Of a DNA stretch of 64,000 bases, positions 12,086 to 20,376 are shown in pieces. The position numbers and the translations under genes were made by a program. The stretch is from Sphingobacteriaceae bacterium (GTDB lineage Bacteria; Bacteroidota; Bacteroidia; Sphingobacteriales; Sphingobacteriaceae), in assembly GCA_947460875.1 (NCBI GenBank), contig CANHGR010000001.1, positions 62,001-126,000 on the forward strand, given 5' to 3'. The notes beneath the pieces were generated by a model that had not been told where the DNA came from, made no database searches, and saw only the letters and a program-made list of their open reading frames with translations. Position 1 is the stretch's first letter. Every line of letters begins with the position of its first letter.

Positions 12086-12163
12086 TTAACAATTACTTAA
12101 CATTAAACTCATGTACCTTTAATCACCACCTAACATAGAAGTAACATTGCCTTAATACTTTTG
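12086..12163 (+). promoter_or_regulatory. TonB-receptor promoter with TTAACA-like elements every 11 bp
   Basis: Elements stand at exact 11-base steps: TTAACA 12086, TTAACA 12097, CTCATG (no match) 12108, TTAATC 12119, CTAACA 12130, GTAACA 12141. The last runs into TAACATTG (12142-12149), and six bases later comes a -7 box TACTTTTG (12156-12163). The same TAACATTG-N6-TAnnTTTG order occurs before the lipoprotein gene at 15072. Direct repeats of TTAACA-like words with one-helical-turn spacing, replacing the -33 region, are the architecture of PhoB/PhoP-type Pho boxes; the assignment to phosphate control is inference. Confidence 0.6.
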
Positions 12164-12185
12164 CTGTAACTAAAAATCAGTAAAA

Positions 12186-14981
12186 GTGAAAAGAAAAAAG
12201 ACTTTTAGAATTTTCGCCCTGGCAATAATTACGGGCTTATTTTCGATAACCGCGTTTGCACAGCAAACTGGTAGAATAGCCGGTAAAATTTCAGATATCA
12301 AAACCGGCGAAACGCTGGTCGCTGTTATTGTTAGAGTGGACGGTACAACTAAGGCTATATCAAGTGATGTAGAAGGCATGTATTCGTTTGCAAATATGGC
12401 TCCCGGGAAGTACGCACTAACGTTTTCTTACCTTGGATATCAATCGAAAAACATCACGGACGTAACTGTAACAGCAGGAACTACGACCAACTTAGACATC
12501 ATCCTAGAACAATCGGCTTCATCGCTTGACGTGGTAACAATTACTTCATCAGCGCGTTTGGAGTCGGTAAGTGCTCTATATGCATCACAAAAGACGAGCA
12601 TTAGCATCTCTAGTGGTATTACTTCTGAATTGATTAAAAGAACTCCTGACCGTAATACTTCTGATGTTTTAAAACGTGTGAGCGGTGCGAGTATTCAGGA
12701 TAATAAATTTGTAATTATTCGTGGATTAGCAGACAGATACAATACTTCGATTTTGAATAACGCTATTCTTCCATCTTCCGAACCGGATAGAAAAGCGTTT
12801 TCATTCGATATTATACCCTCCAGCTTAATTGATAGGGTTGTAGTAAACAAAACGGCTTCTGCCAACCTTCCCGGTGATTTTGCAGGCGGTGTTATTCAAG
12901 TAATCACTCGTGACGTGCCGGAATCAAATTTTTTAAATCTTGCTGTAAGTTTTGGATATAACAGTCAATCAACTTTTAAAGACTTCACATCAAACGGTAG
13001 AAATAAATATGATTTTCTTGGTTTTGATGATGGCAGCAGAAAGCTTCCTGCAGGTTTTCCGGCCTCCTTCCAAGAGTACAACCCATTAACGAATGCACAA
13101 AAGGCACAGTTTACTGGGCAGCTGAAAAACTCATACGGGCAATCAAAGACTAGTGCAATACCTTCTCAAACTCATCAAATAACCTACGGTAAAAGAAAGG
13201 ATCTTAAGAACGGTGGTTCTTTTGGAAGTATTTTGTCATTGAGCTATAGAAATGCTCAGAATATGGCAGTGGCCGAAAGAAAAGATTATGAATTTTCTGG
13301 AAATCCATTTTATGAATACGAAGAAGATATATTCAAGTATAGCACTAATGTAGGTCTACTTGGCAATTTCGCCTTAGTAAAGGGATCTAATAAGTTTGCA
13401 TTCAAGAACATGTATAATCGTGGATTTGAAGACAGCTACACGGCAAGAACTGGATTCACTACAGATAATATTCAGGATATACAGTTTAGCAGTTCAGACC
13501 TTACTCAAAAAAGTCTTTTTAACTCGCAGTTAGAAGGTGATCACCAGTTTGGTAAAAAGAAACTTAAGTTTAATTGGAACTTAAACTACGCAAGAGTTGA
13601 AAGAGAGCAACCTGATCAACGGACAATGGACTATAGGCGGTCCTTGGGCTCTTCTGCGCCATTTCGTCTAATCGATAGAAATACGAGAAGATTTTTCTCA
13701 GATCTACAGGAAGATACCTATGGAGCTCAGACTGCCGTAACAGTGCCTTTAAAGATGTTTGATCAGCAAGCTTCGTTGAAAGCAGGACTTTTAATACAAT
13801 ACAAACAGCGTGATTTTAAAGCTCGTATTTTCAATTATCAATTCGTAGGTCCGTCTGTTTTTGAAGCTCCCTTTAGTAGCCAGCCAAAAGAACAGATTTT
13901 CCAGGCTTCAAATATTAGCGAGAATGGTTACATCCTTACTGATTTTACGAACAATACTGATAGTTATGATGCTAATTCTGATTTGAATGCCGGTTTCATA
14001 ATGCTGGATAATCAAGTCGGTGAAAGATTTAGATTGTCATATGGTGCACGTGTTGAGCAATTTGCACAAACGCTAAATGCAATAGATTTTTCTGGTCAGG
14101 CAATTTCTGCCAAACAAGACAATCTGGATGTATTGCCATCGGCAAACATTACCTATAAAGTTAATGAGCAGGCTAATGTCCGTTTATCGGGTTCCCAGAC
14201 AGTTTCAAGGCCGGAGTTCAGAGAGTTGGCTTTATTTAATTACTATGATTTTGTGAGCCAAATATCAGTTACAGGTAACCCGGCGCTAAAACGTGCTAAA
14301 ATTATCAATGCCGATTTGCGCTATGAAGTATATCCTTCGCCAGGAGAAGCCGTTACCGTATCGGCGTTTTATAAAAACTTTGACAGTCCGATAGAACAAC
14401 GCATGAATTCAAATTCTACTCCGGTAGTTCGTGGTATCAATTATTTAAATGCAGACCAAGCAACTTCTTTAGGGCTCGAATTGGATGTACGCAAAAAATT
14501 AACATTCTTGGGAGATAGCGAGTGGCTTGAAAATTTGACAGCTTTTGCAAATGCAACATATATCAAGTCAAAGGTTATTGGCCAAGGTATTGATAGACCA
14601 TTGCAAGGGCAGTCACCTTATCTTGTGAATGCGGGTTTACAATATTTCTCTCCAGTTTCTAATTTAACTTTTACAACGGTTTACAACCGTATCGGACAAC
14701 GGATATTTCTAGTTGGTTATCAAGGCTACGCAGATATTTATGAAAACGCGCGGGATGTAATTGATTTGCAGATTAGTAAGAAAGTGTTTAAGTCGAACGC
14801 TGAAATTAAGCTGAATGTAGGCGATATTCTTAATCAATCAACTGTGTTTTATCAGAATAATGAAGGAAATAAGAACCGGGCGTACGAAGGTGAAGGTACA
14901 GACAGGCTAATCAATTCATCTAGACTGGGTACTAACGTATCACTTTCATTCTCTTATAATCTTGGCCTTGAAAAAAAGTGA
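12186..14981 (+). CDS. TonB-dependent outer-membrane receptor
   Basis: Outer-membrane active-transport receptor of 931 residues. A signal peptide (about 1-25, ending SITAFAQQ) precedes a carboxypeptidase-like regulatory domain (about 27-105, TGRIAGKISDIKTGETLVAV), a plug (about 130-235, SGASIQDNKFVIIRGLADRY) and a long beta barrel ending in the aromatic stretch SLSFSYNLGLEKK. The start is a GTG at 12186; no ATG lies before the signal peptide. It is not accompanied by a SusD-like protein; the next gene encodes a secreted lipoprotein with a matching promoter, so the two probably act together. The substrate is unknown, although phosphate-starvation control is suggested by the upstream repeats. 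Confidence 0.92.
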   Translation: MKRKKTFRIFALAIITGLFSITAFAQQTGRIAGKISDIKTGETLVAVIVRVDGTTKAISSDVEGMYSFANMAPGKYALTFSYLGYQSKNITDVTVTAGTTTNLDIILEQSASSLDVVTITSSARLESVSALYASQKTSISISSGITSELIKRTPDRNTSDVLKRVSGASIQDNKFVIIRGLADRYNTSILNNAILPSSEPDRKAFSFDIIPSSLIDRVVVNKTASANLPGDFAGGVIQVITRDVPESNFLNLAVSFGYNSQSTFKDFTSNGRNKYDFLGFDDGSRKLPAGFPASFQEYNPLTNAQKAQFTGQLKNSYGQSKTSAIPSQTHQITYGKRKDLKNGGSFGSILSLSYRNAQNMAVAERKDYEFSGNPFYEYEEDIFKYSTNVGLLGNFALVKGSNKFAFKNMYNRGFEDSYTARTGFTTDNIQDIQFSSSDLTQKSLFNSQLEGDHQFGKKKLKFNWNLNYARVEREQPDQRTMDYRRSLGSSAPFRLIDRNTRRFFSDLQEDTYGAQTAVTVPLKMFDQQASLKAGLLIQYKQRDFKARIFNYQFVGPSVFEAPFSSQPKEQIFQASNISENGYILTDFTNNTDSYDANSDLNAGFIMLDNQVGERFRLSYGARVEQFAQTLNAIDFSGQAISAKQDNLDVLPSANITYKVNEQANVRLSGSQTVSRPEFRELALFNYYDFVSQISVTGNPALKRAKIINADLRYEVYPSPGEAVTVSAFYKNFDSPIEQRMNSNSTPVVRGINYLNADQATSLGLELDVRKKLTFLGDSEWLENLTAFANATYIKSKVIGQGIDRPLQGQSPYLVNAGLQYFSPVSNLTFTTVYNRIGQRIFLVGYQGYADIYENARDVIDLQISKKVFKSNAEIKLNVGDILNQSTVFYQNNEGNKNRAYEGEGTDRLINSSRLGTNVSLSFSYNLGLEKK

Positions 14982-15005
14982 AAGGCTAGTTTTTAAACAG
15001 ACGAT

Positions 15006-15050
15006 TTAATGCTGACTTAAAGTTAAGATAACATTGGGTAGCTAATTTTG
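15006..15050 (+). promoter_or_regulatory. lipoprotein promoter with 11-bp repeats matching the receptor promoter
   Basis: TTAATG 15006, TTAAAG 15017 and ATAACA 15028 are spaced exactly 11 bases apart. The last forms TAACATTG (15029-15036), followed after six bases by the -7 box TAATTTTG (15043-15050), 22 bases before the ATG. Word, gap and box match the promoter at 12142-12163. Confidence 0.6.
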
Positions 15051-15071
15051 TAACAAATTAAATTTAACAAT

Positions 15072-16448
15072 ATGAAATTTTTAAAATTAAAAAGCTTATT
15101 TCTGGCAGCAGTTGTGTTGATGTCAGCGTGTAAAAAAGATGAGGATGCTCCAGTAGTAGATCCTAATGCAAATGCGATTTTGACTTTGCAAACCGGTGGT
15201 ACAATAACAGGTGTTTACAAGAAAACCACATTGAATATCCCAGAAGGAACTTATACGCTTAAAGGCTACGTGTTTTTTGAAGAAGGTAGTGAGATCAATA
15301 TCGCTGCAGGTGCAATTATAAAAAGTGATGTTTCTGATAAAGGCGCTTTAATTATAGAAAGAGGCGCTAAAATTAATGCTGTTGGTACAGCTGCTAAACC
15401 TATCGTATTTACGTCAGGCAAGGCTGTGGGCCAGCGTATGCCTGGTGATTGGGGTGGCATTGTTATTTTGGGAAAAGCAACTACTAACCGGACTACTGAA
15501 CCTACTATCGAAGGCGGCATTGGTAAGAACTACGGCGGTACAGTTGACAATGATAATTCAGGTACGTTAAAATATGTACGTATCGAGTTTGCGGGGATAG
15601 CTGCACAACTAAACTCTGAAATTAACGGATTGACATTAGGTGGAGTCGGTTCTGGTACAACAATAGAATATGTACAAGTATCTTACGGTAATGACGATGC
15701 ATTCGAAATTTTCGGTGGAACAGTAAATGCGAAATATCTAATTGCACATGCTACTGCGGATGATGATTTTGATTTTGACTTTGGTTACAGAGGCAGAATT
15801 CAATTTGGTGTTACTTTAAGAGATCCTTCAATAGTAGATCCTGCCGATGCCGGTAATGGAGTTGAGTGCGATAATGATGGTACAGGAACGCTTGCAACGC
15901 CAACTACAAGGCCAGTACTTTCCAACTTTACCTTTATCGGTCCAAACTCGGACGTTACTACGTCTAAGAATCATAATTTTGCGAATCGTTTTAGAAGATC
16001 TTCAACATTTGTTTTGAATAATTCAGTACTGATTGGATGGATGAAAGGTGGATTGTCTTTGGAGTCTGACCAAACCTATAACAGTTTAGTCGATGCGGCT
16101 GGAACTTCAGAATTCAAAAATAATTTATTGCATGCTAACTTAGATTCTTATAGAATTGGGTCTGTTACTGTAAGTGGAGCTCTTGCTGCTACTGTAAAAA
16201 CTAAGGTAGAAGCAAGCGCAACAACTACTCTAACTGCAGCGGTTGATGCAAAACTTACTGATCCATTTAATCTTGTTACACCAAATCTTTTGCCAGCAAC
16301 TGGTTCGCCTGCATTGACTGGAGCTGCATTTGCCGGTGATTTAACCAACTCATTCTTTACTTCTACTACTTACCGTGGAGCATTTGGTACAACAAACTGG
16401 ATGGCCGGATGGACAAGTTTCATAGTAAAAGGAGCAGCAGGATACTAA
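15072..16448 (+). CDS. secreted lipoprotein with beta-helix-like repeats, unknown function
   Basis: A 458-residue protein with a lipoprotein signal: MKFLKLKSLFLAAVVLMSACKK, with the lipobox MSAC and Cys near residue 20. The mature part is rich in Gly, Thr, Asp and Asn, with conserved-looking stretches GDWGGIVILGKA, YGGTVDNDNSGTLKYVRIEF, GVGSGTTIEYVQVSYGNDD and ADDDFDFDFGYRGRIQFG. This pattern suggests a right-handed beta-helix and possible calcium binding by Asp clusters. Homologues known to me are widespread in Bacteroidota, sometimes mislabelled as multidrug transporters, and commonly sit beside a TonB-dependent receptor, as here. No catalytic residues are evident. It is probably co-regulated with the receptor upstream. 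Confidence 0.85.
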   Translation: MKFLKLKSLFLAAVVLMSACKKDEDAPVVDPNANAILTLQTGGTITGVYKKTTLNIPEGTYTLKGYVFFEEGSEINIAAGAIIKSDVSDKGALIIERGAKINAVGTAAKPIVFTSGKAVGQRMPGDWGGIVILGKATTNRTTEPTIEGGIGKNYGGTVDNDNSGTLKYVRIEFAGIAAQLNSEINGLTLGGVGSGTTIEYVQVSYGNDDAFEIFGGTVNAKYLIAHATADDDFDFDFGYRGRIQFGVTLRDPSIVDPADAGNGVECDNDGTGTLATPTTRPVLSNFTFIGPNSDVTTSKNHNFANRFRRSSTFVLNNSVLIGWMKGGLSLESDQTYNSLVDAAGTSEFKNNLLHANLDSYRIGSVTVSGALAATVKTKVEASATTTLTAAVDAKLTDPFNLVTPNLLPATGSPALTGAAFAGDLTNSFFTSTTYRGAFGTTNWMAGWTSFIVKGAAGY

Positions 16449-16472
16449 TTTATTCTCTTCCATATATTAATA

Positions 16473-16505
16473 AAAAAAGGTCTGCAAGTCGCAGGCCTTT
16501 TTTGT
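16473..16505. terminator. bidirectional terminator between convergent genes
   Basis: AAAAAGGTCTGC (16476-16484 core) pairs with GCAGGCCTTTTT (16491-16502) around AAGTC. A-run and T-run flanks let it act for both the lipoprotein gene and the convergent gene ending at 16505. Confidence 0.8.
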
Positions 16506-17716
16506 TAATGAATTTTTTTATCGGGAGCGTACTGATATACCACTTGGTAGGCCAGATTTTGAAATTTAGGGGCTAGTTGCCCTATTTTTAAATTCTCTAA
16601 TTGCGGTGTAGGTTCGCATACATAGTACTTTTTTCCGTCATATATAATAGGTTTTCCAACAGGCTTATCGAACTGCACCGCCATGGTGATATGAGTAGGA
16701 TACAGCAGTGCGATCATAGGTAGATTGTATATCTCCTTTACTAGGTAAAAAAAAAGTGCAACTCGATCATCACAATCACTTTGGTCGTAAAATAGAGTTT
16801 GCTCTGGCGAGAGGCGTTTTTCCTTTCCGAAGTTGTCGTTGTCATCCTCATAGATAAACGCGTTTCGGGTAAATTTCATTAAATAGTCGACTCCTTTTTT
16901 TTCAGACATTCCCTTTAGATTCTCTTTCAACGGCGGTATCAAGGAGCGGTAGGTTTCCTTGCTTAATGGGATGTTAAAGTAGGTTCCAAAATCCACTATT
17001 GGATAGTTCGCAAATATGTTTGCCACTTCAGGGTTCAACATTATCTTAAAATGATAGGCTTTCTGCTTATAGTTAAAACCGATCTCTTTTTCTTTATAGC
17101 TTTCTAATTTGAAGTCCGGCAATTGAGTTACCTTATATGAAAACGCCTTTTCTGCGCCGGCTATCACAATATTGGTTGGGCTAATCTTGTTCTTTTCAAA
17201 ATCTATTTTACCGTAATCGTGATAATTCAGACACATATATTGGTTATTGTCAATGGTATAGAAAGGAATGTCTTCAAGTTGATCATTGCTTTTTACATAA
17301 AAAAGTAGTTGATCTTTGACAAGCCCAAGCGTTGCATCGTAACCTGATTTGGCTAACAGGAACCATTTGTAAAGTGTATAGCGATTATAATCATTGGCTT
17401 TCGGGCTAATTGCTTCTGCGGTTTTTCTGATCAACTGGTAGTAAAGCCAATCGTTTATCTTGTGATCATTGCGAAATGAAATAAGTGAATCAATCAATGG
17501 CTGGTAGTTGCCAGCATTAATCCGTGTATAAAACTCTAATACAGATTCTTCTGATAGCGGCCCTTTGAAATCCACTATAATAGACTGGTCAACGGTTACA
17601 TGGAAGGTTTGGCCGTAAAACTCGAAAGAGTTAATTCTAGTGTCAATCTTTCCATAAGATGGAAAGATACATCCCATAAGAATTGTAAATAACAAGCTGA
17701 ATATGAGGTGTCTCAA
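16505..17716 (-). CDS. secreted transglutaminase-like protein
   Basis: A 403-residue protein with an N-terminal signal peptide (about 1-22, HLIFSLLFTILMGCIFPSYG; the Cys lacks a good lipobox). The C-terminal half has the arrangement of a transglutaminase-like cysteine protease fold: a Cys in DQSDCDDRVALFFYLVK (about 320), a His in YPTHITMAV (about 350) and a third polar residue near YYVCEPTP (about 372). The start is TTG at 17716, needed to keep the signal peptide. The substrate is unknown. A triplet of TTAACA at 11-base period lies 18-45 bases upstream, linking it to the two genes before it. It is convergent with the lipoprotein gene. Confidence 0.75.
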   Translation of the reverse strand: MRHLIFSLLFTILMGCIFPSYGKIDTRINSFEFYGQTFHVTVDQSIIVDFKGPLSEESVLEFYTRINAGNYQPLIDSLISFRNDHKINDWLYYQLIRKTAEAISPKANDYNRYTLYKWFLLAKSGYDATLGLVKDQLLFYVKSNDQLEDIPFYTIDNNQYMCLNYHDYGKIDFEKNKISPTNIVIAGAEKAFSYKVTQLPDFKLESYKEKEIGFNYKQKAYHFKIMLNPEVANIFANYPIVDFGTYFNIPLSKETYRSLIPPLKENLKGMSEKKGVDYLMKFTRNAFIYEDDNDNFGKEKRLSPEQTLFYDQSDCDDRVALFFYLVKEIYNLPMIALLYPTHITMAVQFDKPVGKPIIYDGKKYYVCEPTPQLENLKIGQLAPKFQNLAYQVVYQYAPDKKIH

Positions 17717-17733
17717 ACTATTATAGTTTTATA

Positions 17734-17761
17734 TTAACACTAAGTTAACATTAAATTAACA
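17734..17761. promoter_or_regulatory. three perfect TTAACA repeats, 11-bp period
   Basis: TTAACA occurs at 17734, 17745 and 17756, exactly 11 bases apart, in the gap between the divergent genes ending/starting at 17716 and 17834. It is the cleanest of three such arrays in the window. A good TAnnTTTG box is not seen at the expected distance in either direction, so the target gene is uncertain. Confidence 0.55.
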
Positions 17762-17789
17762 TATATATAACAAAGATGGAAAGTTTTTA

Positions 17790-17833: not shown

Positions 17834-18757
17834 ATGGACTTTAAAAGACTTCAAGGTGCTTTTACATTTTCCAAAAAGGAGATCAATGGATTAGTTGTTT
17901 TTTGTTTTTTGCTTTTGGCAATTTTGATGGCTCCAATTGCCTACCACTGGTTTAATGAGCCTGAGGTTTTTGTTTTTAAGGATTTTGAAAAGGAGATTAA
18001 ATCATTTAAAGCGTCTGGACAAGCAAAAACTAGGTATAAATACCTCCAAGTTAGGGATGAAATAGAGAATAATGAATCCGAGCCGCAGTATTTTAATTTC
18101 AATCCCAATAATCTACCAACGGAGTCTTGGGGCAAGCTTGGTCTAAGCAGGAAACAAATTGCCGTAATTAAAAATTACGAAACCAAGGGTGGCCGATTTT
18201 ATCAAAAAGAAGACCTCAAGAAGATTTATTCGATTTCTGACAAAGAATATCTAAGCCTAGAGCCGTACATCACCATTCCGGAGCCAACTCATCCGGATAG
18301 AGGCTCAGCAAAAACTTATGAACTAAAAAATCCTGTGATTAATACCCCAAAGGTTTTAGAAATCAATGGTGCTGATTCAGTTGAACTGGAAACAATTAGG
18401 GGCATCGGCCCAGCTTTCGCATCAAGGATTATCAGATATCGAACACGCCTTGGCGGATTTTACAAGGCAGAGCAGTTGAAAGAAGTTTATGGTATAGATG
18501 CAAGTAAGTTTGAACAGTTTCAAAGCCAGATAGTTGTGGATGTGTCTGCCGTTCGAAAAATTAATATCAATACCTGCGGTTTTGACGACCTAAAAGCTCA
18601 TCCTTACCTAACTTTCAAGCAAATAAACGCCATATTGCAGTATCGCAAACAGCATGGTGCTTATAGTTCTTTGATCGATCTTAAAAAAGTAATTTTATTG
18701 GATGAATTGGTCTTGAGCAAGTTAGGTCCATATTTAAATTTTAATGATCAAAAATAA
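17834..18757 (+). CDS. ComEA-like helix-hairpin-helix protein
   Basis: A 307-residue membrane-anchored protein with one hydrophobic span (about residues 19-36, GLVVFCFLLLAILMAP) and several helix-hairpin-helix units: LSRKQIAVIKNYETKGGRF, TIRGIGPAFASRIIRYRTRL, KININTCGFDDLKAHPYL and a final HGAYSSLIDLKKV. ComEA-type proteins bind DNA, in competent bacteria during uptake; in Bacteroidota these multi-HhH forms are common and their role is not settled. The gene overlaps apt by 14 bases, so the two are coupled. It is longer than classical ComEA because of repeated HhH units. Confidence 0.85.
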   Translation: MDFKRLQGAFTFSKKEINGLVVFCFLLLAILMAPIAYHWFNEPEVFVFKDFEKEIKSFKASGQAKTRYKYLQVRDEIENNESEPQYFNFNPNNLPTESWGKLGLSRKQIAVIKNYETKGGRFYQKEDLKKIYSISDKEYLSLEPYITIPEPTHPDRGSAKTYELKNPVINTPKVLEINGADSVELETIRGIGPAFASRIIRYRTRLGGFYKAEQLKEVYGIDASKFEQFQSQIVVDVSAVRKININTCGFDDLKAHPYLTFKQINAILQYRKQHGAYSSLIDLKKVILLDELVLSKLGPYLNFNDQK

Positions 18758-19271: not shown

Positions 19272-20376
19272 TTAGTTTGCAGCAATTCTGAATAGCTTTC
19301 CGGTTACGTAATAGAGAACATCAGGGTTACTTTTACTGTCTTCGCCAAAAGAAGATAAGTCTCCCGGCAGGTTGGCAATCAATTCATTTTTAACAGCGCT
19401 TTTTCCGTTGAAGGTTAAAGCCCAAATGTTGCCTGAGACATAGTCGTCATAAATGTATTTGCTGTTAAGGGCAGATTGGTTTAATCAAATTAGTTTGGTC
19501 ACAGTTCAAGGCGTCATAGCATTCATTGCCTTATATCGCCCTCCAGTCATACTTTCCGACTTTTTCAATAATATCTACCTCTTCTATTTTGTTCTGACCC
19601 ACATCGCCCGCCCATATCATCCCGCTCTGTTGGTCAAAGCTAAATCGCCACGCGTTACGCAAACCATAGGCATAGATTTCGTCAGAGAAGCCGTTGGACT
19701 TTCCTTTGTATGGATTATCTTGAGGTAATGCATAGTTCCGGCCGGTAGAGGTATTATGCACGTCGTTCGTAAGATTTTGCCCAGCAATTCCTTTCTGTTC
19801 TGAGCTCGGTTTCCGGGATCTCCACCGCTACCGCCGTCGCCAGATCCGATATATCGATAACCGTCATTGCCGAACGCAACTTTACCACCATTATGATTCG
19901 AAAATGGCGGTGTGTATTTAAGTAGGATAAGCGCACTTTCCGGATCGGCAACATGTCGATTAGACGCGCGTACTTTAAAACGTGCAATAACTGTTACCAA
20001 TTTGTTGTCCTTGGTATAATTGATGTAGAAATATCCATTTGTTTTATAATCCGGATGGAATGCTAGTCCCAACAGAACTCTTTCGCCACTACCAACCAAG
20101 CGACTGCTTAGATCTAAAAATATCGACGCGCTTTTTATTTTGCCTTGATTTTCAGAAACATGGATCAACCCGGTTTGGCTTGCAACAGATATCCGATCTG
20201 TATTATCGTTCGGACTTGTTCGCTCGATAGGATCTGCAAACGCCAAGTTGGTAAAGGCCGTCGCAAGCTCAAAAGTGCCCGTAGGCGTGGTCGAATTTTT
20301 AGGCGCTTTATCAGTAGAATTACAGCTGGCAAAGATGCCGAGCAAGGAAGAACAGAATTAAAGTGCGTTTATTCAC
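19272..20376 (-). pseudogene. broken PQQ-type glucose/sorbosone dehydrogenase lipoprotein
   Basis: Remnant of a PQQ-dependent sugar dehydrogenase (GSDH family) lipoprotein, reading down from a GTG at 20374-20376. Three lesions are visible. The signal peptide MNKRTLILFFL is shifted by an extra base (CTTGCTC) before LLGIFASC. The frame breaks near 19765, where LGKILR should continue into DVHNTSTGRNYALP. A stretch of roughly 100 residues is missing between GKYDWRAI (about 19531) and the C-terminal part YIYDDYVSGNIWALTFNG (about 19400-19460). The C-terminus KLFRIAAN ends at 19272-19274. The rest still matches the family well (FSNHNGGKVAFGNDG, GDGGSGGDPGNRAQ), so the loss is recent. Confidence 0.88.

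Follow-up and report, generated by a model that had tools for sequence, protein, structure and literature searches.

Tandem direct repeats at an 11-bp spacing are typical of the sites bound by OmpR/PhoB-family response regulators, and Bacillus subtilis PhoP binds repeats of the TTAACA type. The Escherichia coli PhoB site is likewise built from 11-nt direct repeat units (PMC4415409). Within the Bacteroidota, phosphate-starvation genes were previously known from omics studies of Flavobacterium. In F. johnsoniae, the TonB-dependent receptor (TBDT) Fjoh_0545 and the lipoprotein Fjoh_0546 of the phoBR cluster were induced under phosphate depletion (log2 fold changes of 8.0 and 9.9, respectively) and not under nitrogen or iron limitation, while induction of Fjoh_3856/3857 (PUSIII) by phosphate depletion was stronger still (PMC8115612). 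No description of an operator was found in that account of the PHO regulon (PMC8115612), and no description of a Pho box for the Bacteroidota was found in the open-access papers searched. A further described system is that of Caulobacter crescentus, in which the low-phosphate outer-membrane lipoprotein ElpS (CC_0170) is encoded next to the TonB receptor CC_0171, and overexpression of ElpS resulted in higher extracellular phosphatase activity (PMC2996285). The FI, FII and FIII proteins have been reported as relatives of ElpS (PMC8115612).

The window, i.e. the whole 64,000-nt stretch of Sphingobacteriaceae DNA analyzed here, contains a TBDT gene followed by a lipoprotein gene, each preceded by an array of TTAACA-like elements, with a third array downstream. 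The features are as follows.

12086..12146, + strand: array 1, putative operator of the TBDT promoter, with six slots of 11 bp
12156..12163, + strand: predicted -7 box of the TBDT promoter, TACTTTTG, matching TAnnTTTG
12186..14981, + strand: TBDT of 931 aa with a GTG start (Plug PF07715, CarbopepD_reg_2 PF13715, OMP_b-brl_3 PF14905)
15006..15033, + strand: array 2, putative operator of the lipoprotein promoter, with three elements in phase
15043..15050, + strand: predicted -7 box of the lipoprotein promoter, TAATTTTG
15072..16448, + strand: exported lipoprotein of 458 aa with a right-handed beta-helix fold; matches no Pfam family and occurs together with the TBDT in relatives
16505..17716, - strand: secreted transglutaminase-like protein beside array 3, no Pfam or NCBIfam match
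17734..17772, + strand: array 3, four elements in 11-bp phase, role unproven
17834..18757, + strand: ComEA-type helix-hairpin-helix protein, 3' of array 3

The coordinates given in the earlier note were all correct, and arrays 1 and 2 were confirmed to the base. Array 1 consists of TTAACA at 12086 and 12097, TTAATC at 12119, CTAACA at 12130 and GTAACA at 12141, with an empty slot at 12108 (CTCATG); array 2 consists of TTAATG at 15006, TTAAAG at 15017 and ATAACA at 15028. Both arrays end in TAACATTG, followed by six nucleotides and the box, and both are described by the same rule: TTAAYA direct repeats every 11 bp, with the final element starting 15 bp 5' of TAnnTTTG. This octamer is the sigma-A -7 consensus (PMC9723704). 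The repeats abut the promoter core in the place of a -35/-33 element, and the conserved columns from -27 to -18 of the TBDT promoter read GCTAACATCC, without a TTG-type -33 element. Arrays 1 and 2 are very probably operators of a PhoB-type regulator. As in the PhoB and PhoP boxes of E. coli and B. subtilis, 11-bp direct repeats lie 5' of the promoter core and precede transport genes as well as the gene of the regulator itself; TTAACA is also similar to the core sequence in Bacillus. In contrast to those systems, the promoter core is TAnnTTTG, the -7 box of the Bacteroidota, as many as six slots are present at the TBDT promoter, the putative targets are a DUF47-Pit transporter and a TBDT/lipoprotein pair, and the genome lacks PhoU.

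Sites in the window were scored with a template of four 11-bp slots and a box at +15. Only array 1 (8.0) and array 2 (7.0) scored at least 7, compared to a mean of 0.03 such sites per window under a first-order Markov null (200 sequences of 64 kb), in which no site reached 7.5. Because the template was derived from arrays 1 and 2 themselves, independent testing is provided by the searches of the whole genome and of the family presented below.

Array 3 was described in the earlier note as three perfect TTAACA copies (17734, 17745 and 17756), which is accurate as to the copies and too short as to the extent, a fourth in-phase element (ATAACA at 17767) having been missed. The array is statistically real, with no triple TTAACA at 11-bp spacing found in 300 Markov windows. 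No TAnnTTTG is present at +15, where position 17782 reads AGTTTTTA. Furthermore, no arrays were found 5' of homologues of the transglutaminase-like gene in relatives L071, L081 and L085, with only a weak one (6,4,4,4) in L067, and none 5' of ComEA-type homologues in six relatives. The suggestion that the transglutaminase-like protein belongs to the regulon is thus unsupported, given the absence of an in-register -7 box and of conservation across those four relatives, and membership of the ComEA-type protein is likewise not supported by the sequence comparisons. With no box in register and no comparable arrays in relatives, array 3 was rejected for now as a conserved operator. That it might nonetheless act as a PhoB site for the ComEA-like or the divergent transglutaminase-like gene through a non-consensus promoter is possible but doubtful: its three perfect elements with a fourth in phase, and the Markov result, speak for such a role, while the missing box and the homologues without a comparable array (save the weak one in L067) speak against it. 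In a separate observation, positions 19617-20345 of the window resemble part of a PQQ-type sugar dehydrogenase gene whose frame is interrupted, reflecting either a pseudogene or an error in sequencing.

The two proteins encoded 3' of arrays 1 and 2 were compared with known low-phosphate proteins. An equivalent of the apparent GTG start of the TBDT at 12186 occurs in several relatives (L073, L074, L084 and L085). No Pfam family was assigned in a scan of 20 homologues of the lipoprotein, and a PDB sequence search returned no match. Its AlphaFold2 model, of high confidence (mean pLDDT 90.4), is a right-handed beta-helix with weak likeness in the PDB to polysaccharide lyases and hydrolases, the best being pectate lyase Pel9A (E 1e-3). 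A TBDT paired with an exported beta-helix lipoprotein is the arrangement of the F. johnsoniae FI/FII lipoprotein family, and it is shared with PUSIV (Fjoh_0542-0549), which is linked to phoBR, and with PUSIII, the lipoproteins there being of the pectin-lyase fold. The Pfam set listed for Fjoh_0545 is that of the window TBDT (PMC8115612), and the pectin-lyase fold listed for FII fits the beta-helix model. Identity to the Flavobacterium proteins is, however, only about 28% for the TBDT and 33-42% for the lipoprotein. Caulobacter ElpS is similar by description, being a low-phosphate lipoprotein beside a TonB receptor, but is tied there to type II secretion. The lipoprotein would be expected to capture a phosphorus source at the cell surface for the TBDT. 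In a relative from another family (L077 4206-8069, G039), a homologue of the lipoprotein lies inside a larger protein (1287 aa) that has PKD domains and ends in a type IX secretion tail.

The 2.2-Mb, 99% complete genome containing the window was searched. The short pattern TAACA-N9-TAnnTTTG yielded four matches, located before the TBDT, the lipoprotein, a DUF47-PitA operon (contig C3) and a choice-of-anchor-I lipoprotein (contig C14), compared to three for the reversed control in the same 2.2 Mb; the strength of this result lies in which genes are targeted and not in the count alone. A longer, 34-bp pattern, allowing up to three mismatches, gave three matches genome-wide (before the TBDT, the lipoprotein and, without any mismatch, DUF47-PitA) versus two for its control. 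The DUF47-PitA site is flanked by the gene of a PhoR-like histidine kinase and by the transporter operon (DUF47, PF01865; PitA, PF01384), i.e. it is 5' of phosphate uptake genes, as expected of a Pho operator. The remaining site lies 5' of the exported choice-of-anchor-I lipoprotein, whose divergent neighbor is a secreted protein of the endonuclease/exonuclease/phosphatase family. This array (L036 9943, - strand) scored 11.0, the highest among the stretches of the genome scanned (~0.5 Mb). Conservation of the box was not clearly seen in seven informative relatives, and the promoter is considered a strong single-genome candidate. Pairs at C5:86402, C6:75506 and C7:91722 were coding or not 5' of a gene and were taken as chance. 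The prediction that a matrix built from the arrays would find phosphate genes was borne out, with DUF47-PitA the best match to the longer pattern and an array present in the phoB promoter (below). The proposal of a local regulon was supported as to the regulon, the sites of which extend beyond this locus to the genome at large.

The genome encodes five OmpR-type regulators. The orphan regulator at C5:23577 shares 55% identity with Flavobacterium PhoB, compared to at most 37% for the other four, and its best NCBIfam model is PhoB, under the cut-off; by sequence it is a clear PhoB candidate. Its promoter contains TTAACA, TTAATG, TTAATC and ATACCA in 11-bp steps with the imperfect -7 box TATTTTAG at +15 (score 7.5, ~0.5 Mb scanned). 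This fifth array, lying 5' of the phoB orthologue itself, suggests autoregulation. The kinase encoded beside DUF47-PitA shares 43% identity with Flavobacterium PhoR, and its best NCBIfam models are PnpS followed by PhoR, both under the cut-off. Orthologues of both PhoB and PhoR are therefore present, although in contrast to F. johnsoniae phoB is encoded here as an orphan, the phoR-like gene being located beside DUF47-PitA. PhoU (PF01895) was absent from this 99% complete genome and found in 13 of 14 control genomes; going by this absence, the classical Pst-PhoU signaling branch appears to be missing.

Another regulator of the OmpR/PhoB family could in principle bind the arrays in response to a different envelope or nutrient cue, as five OmpR-type regulators are encoded and 11-bp tandem repeats are usual across the family. 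This is improbable, however, since among the promoters examined the box precedes a phosphate transporter and the PhoB orthologue, no site at the loci of the remaining four regulators reaches a score of 6.5, and the related Flavobacterium genes answer to phosphate only, not to nitrogen or iron. Control by the PhoB orthologue is the preferred reading.

Conservation was examined in 61 genomes of the same family, in which the two-element pattern gave 83 matches versus 1 for the reversed control. Thirty of these matches were inspected, and 17 were located 5' of DUF47 and 3' of a PhoR-like kinase; the others include sites 5' of TBDT genes and a single site 5' of a gene for a metallophosphoesterase-like protein. 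The order PhoR-like kinase, Pho box, DUF47, PitA (L035 9122-12183 on C3) is kept in 16 relatives. For an unbiased test, 17 TBDT loci were picked by homology of the lipoprotein. A single TAnnTTTG was present in 15 of the 17 promoters, and 55 of the 62 TAAYA elements were in one 11-bp register to the box. Alignment of 16 TBDT promoters (the window and 15 relatives from other genera) resolved six slots, with TAA invariant at -14, -25 and -36 relative to the box, TAA near-invariant at -58 and -69, and T.A at -47, a weak slot common to the window and its relatives. Chance patterning of AT-rich intergenic DNA, in which single TTAACA words are common and the short pattern matched its own genome 4 times against 3 for the reversed control, is contradicted for arrays 1 and 2 by the Markov null, the family-wide count and the in-register columns invariant across 16 species and is extremely unlikely as a general explanation, being possible in part for array 3.

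The neighbors of the TBDT in relatives, as read from sequence, likewise point to phosphate. In two small-genome relatives, the TBDT is adjoined by apparent polyphosphate kinase and exopolyphosphatase genes (L069 1498-4427 and L082 10136-13069), named by reading the sequences and not by domain search, and in L077 a regulator named PhoB-like in the same manner is divergent from it.

Outside the family, the strict consensus gave about 22 matches in 286 genomes versus 7 for the control, and the strict TTAA-N7-TTAA-N11 pattern gave none in one Flavobacterium genome. Results from Flavobacterium promoters (those of the phoBR-linked TBDT and lipoprotein, and of an orphan relative) account for these low values, as xTAACA elements are found at 15, 26, 37, 48, 59, 70 and 81 bp 5' of the box, i.e. 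in the same register as in the source genome. This comparison drew on three close genomes, F. johnsoniae itself not being among the 80 loci compared; the phoBR-TBDT-lipoprotein cluster is present in all three. Judging from these alignments, the sequence of the operator drifts across lineages and its geometry stays, hence the weak class-wide strict search and the zero matches in Flavobacterium. The record titled Rhizobium sp. Q54 MAG (L126) encodes a ribosomal protein L4 of the Flavobacterium type (91% identity) and is probably a mislabelled bin.

Taken as a whole, the reading of arrays 1 and 2 as operators of a PhoB-type response regulator within a Pho-type regulon is held with high confidence. 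The phosphate-type control of the TBDT and lipoprotein put forward in the earlier note is supported, arrays being present also 5' of DUF47-PitA and the phoB orthologue. In the proposed mechanism, subunits of phosphorylated PhoB, for which the orphan C5:23577 is the probable candidate, would line up head to tail on the 11-bp direct repeats. The last subunit would lie just 5' of the TAnnTTTG box, standing in for the -33 element, and would recruit sigma-A RNA polymerase upon phosphate exhaustion. The predicted targets, which in the source organism would be induced at low phosphate, are the TBDT, the beta-helix lipoprotein, DUF47-PitA, phoB and the exported choice-of-anchor-I lipoprotein, and PhoB is probably paired with the PhoR-like kinase whose gene lies immediately 5' of DUF47-PitA. 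At the outer membrane, a phosphorus source would be bound and imported by the TBDT and lipoprotein, and the phosphate released would enter the cell through PitA. A more tentative, and on balance rather unlikely, proposal is that phosphate is sensed without Pst-PhoU in this lineage. As DUF47 belongs to a PhoU-like family (PF01865), DUF47-PitA could in that case act as a transport sensor setting the activity of PhoR, with the Pho box between kinase and transporter closing a feedback loop.

The regulon is of a known kind, with a Bacteroidota operator that is apparently undescribed. The code of TTAAYA every 11 bp with TAnnTTTG at 15 bp makes phosphate regulons readable directly from genomes of the Sphingobacteriaceae type. 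Furthermore, the analysis points to an orphan phoB together with a likely phoR, and offers a testable hypothesis of Pst-independent phosphate sensing around DUF47-PitA.
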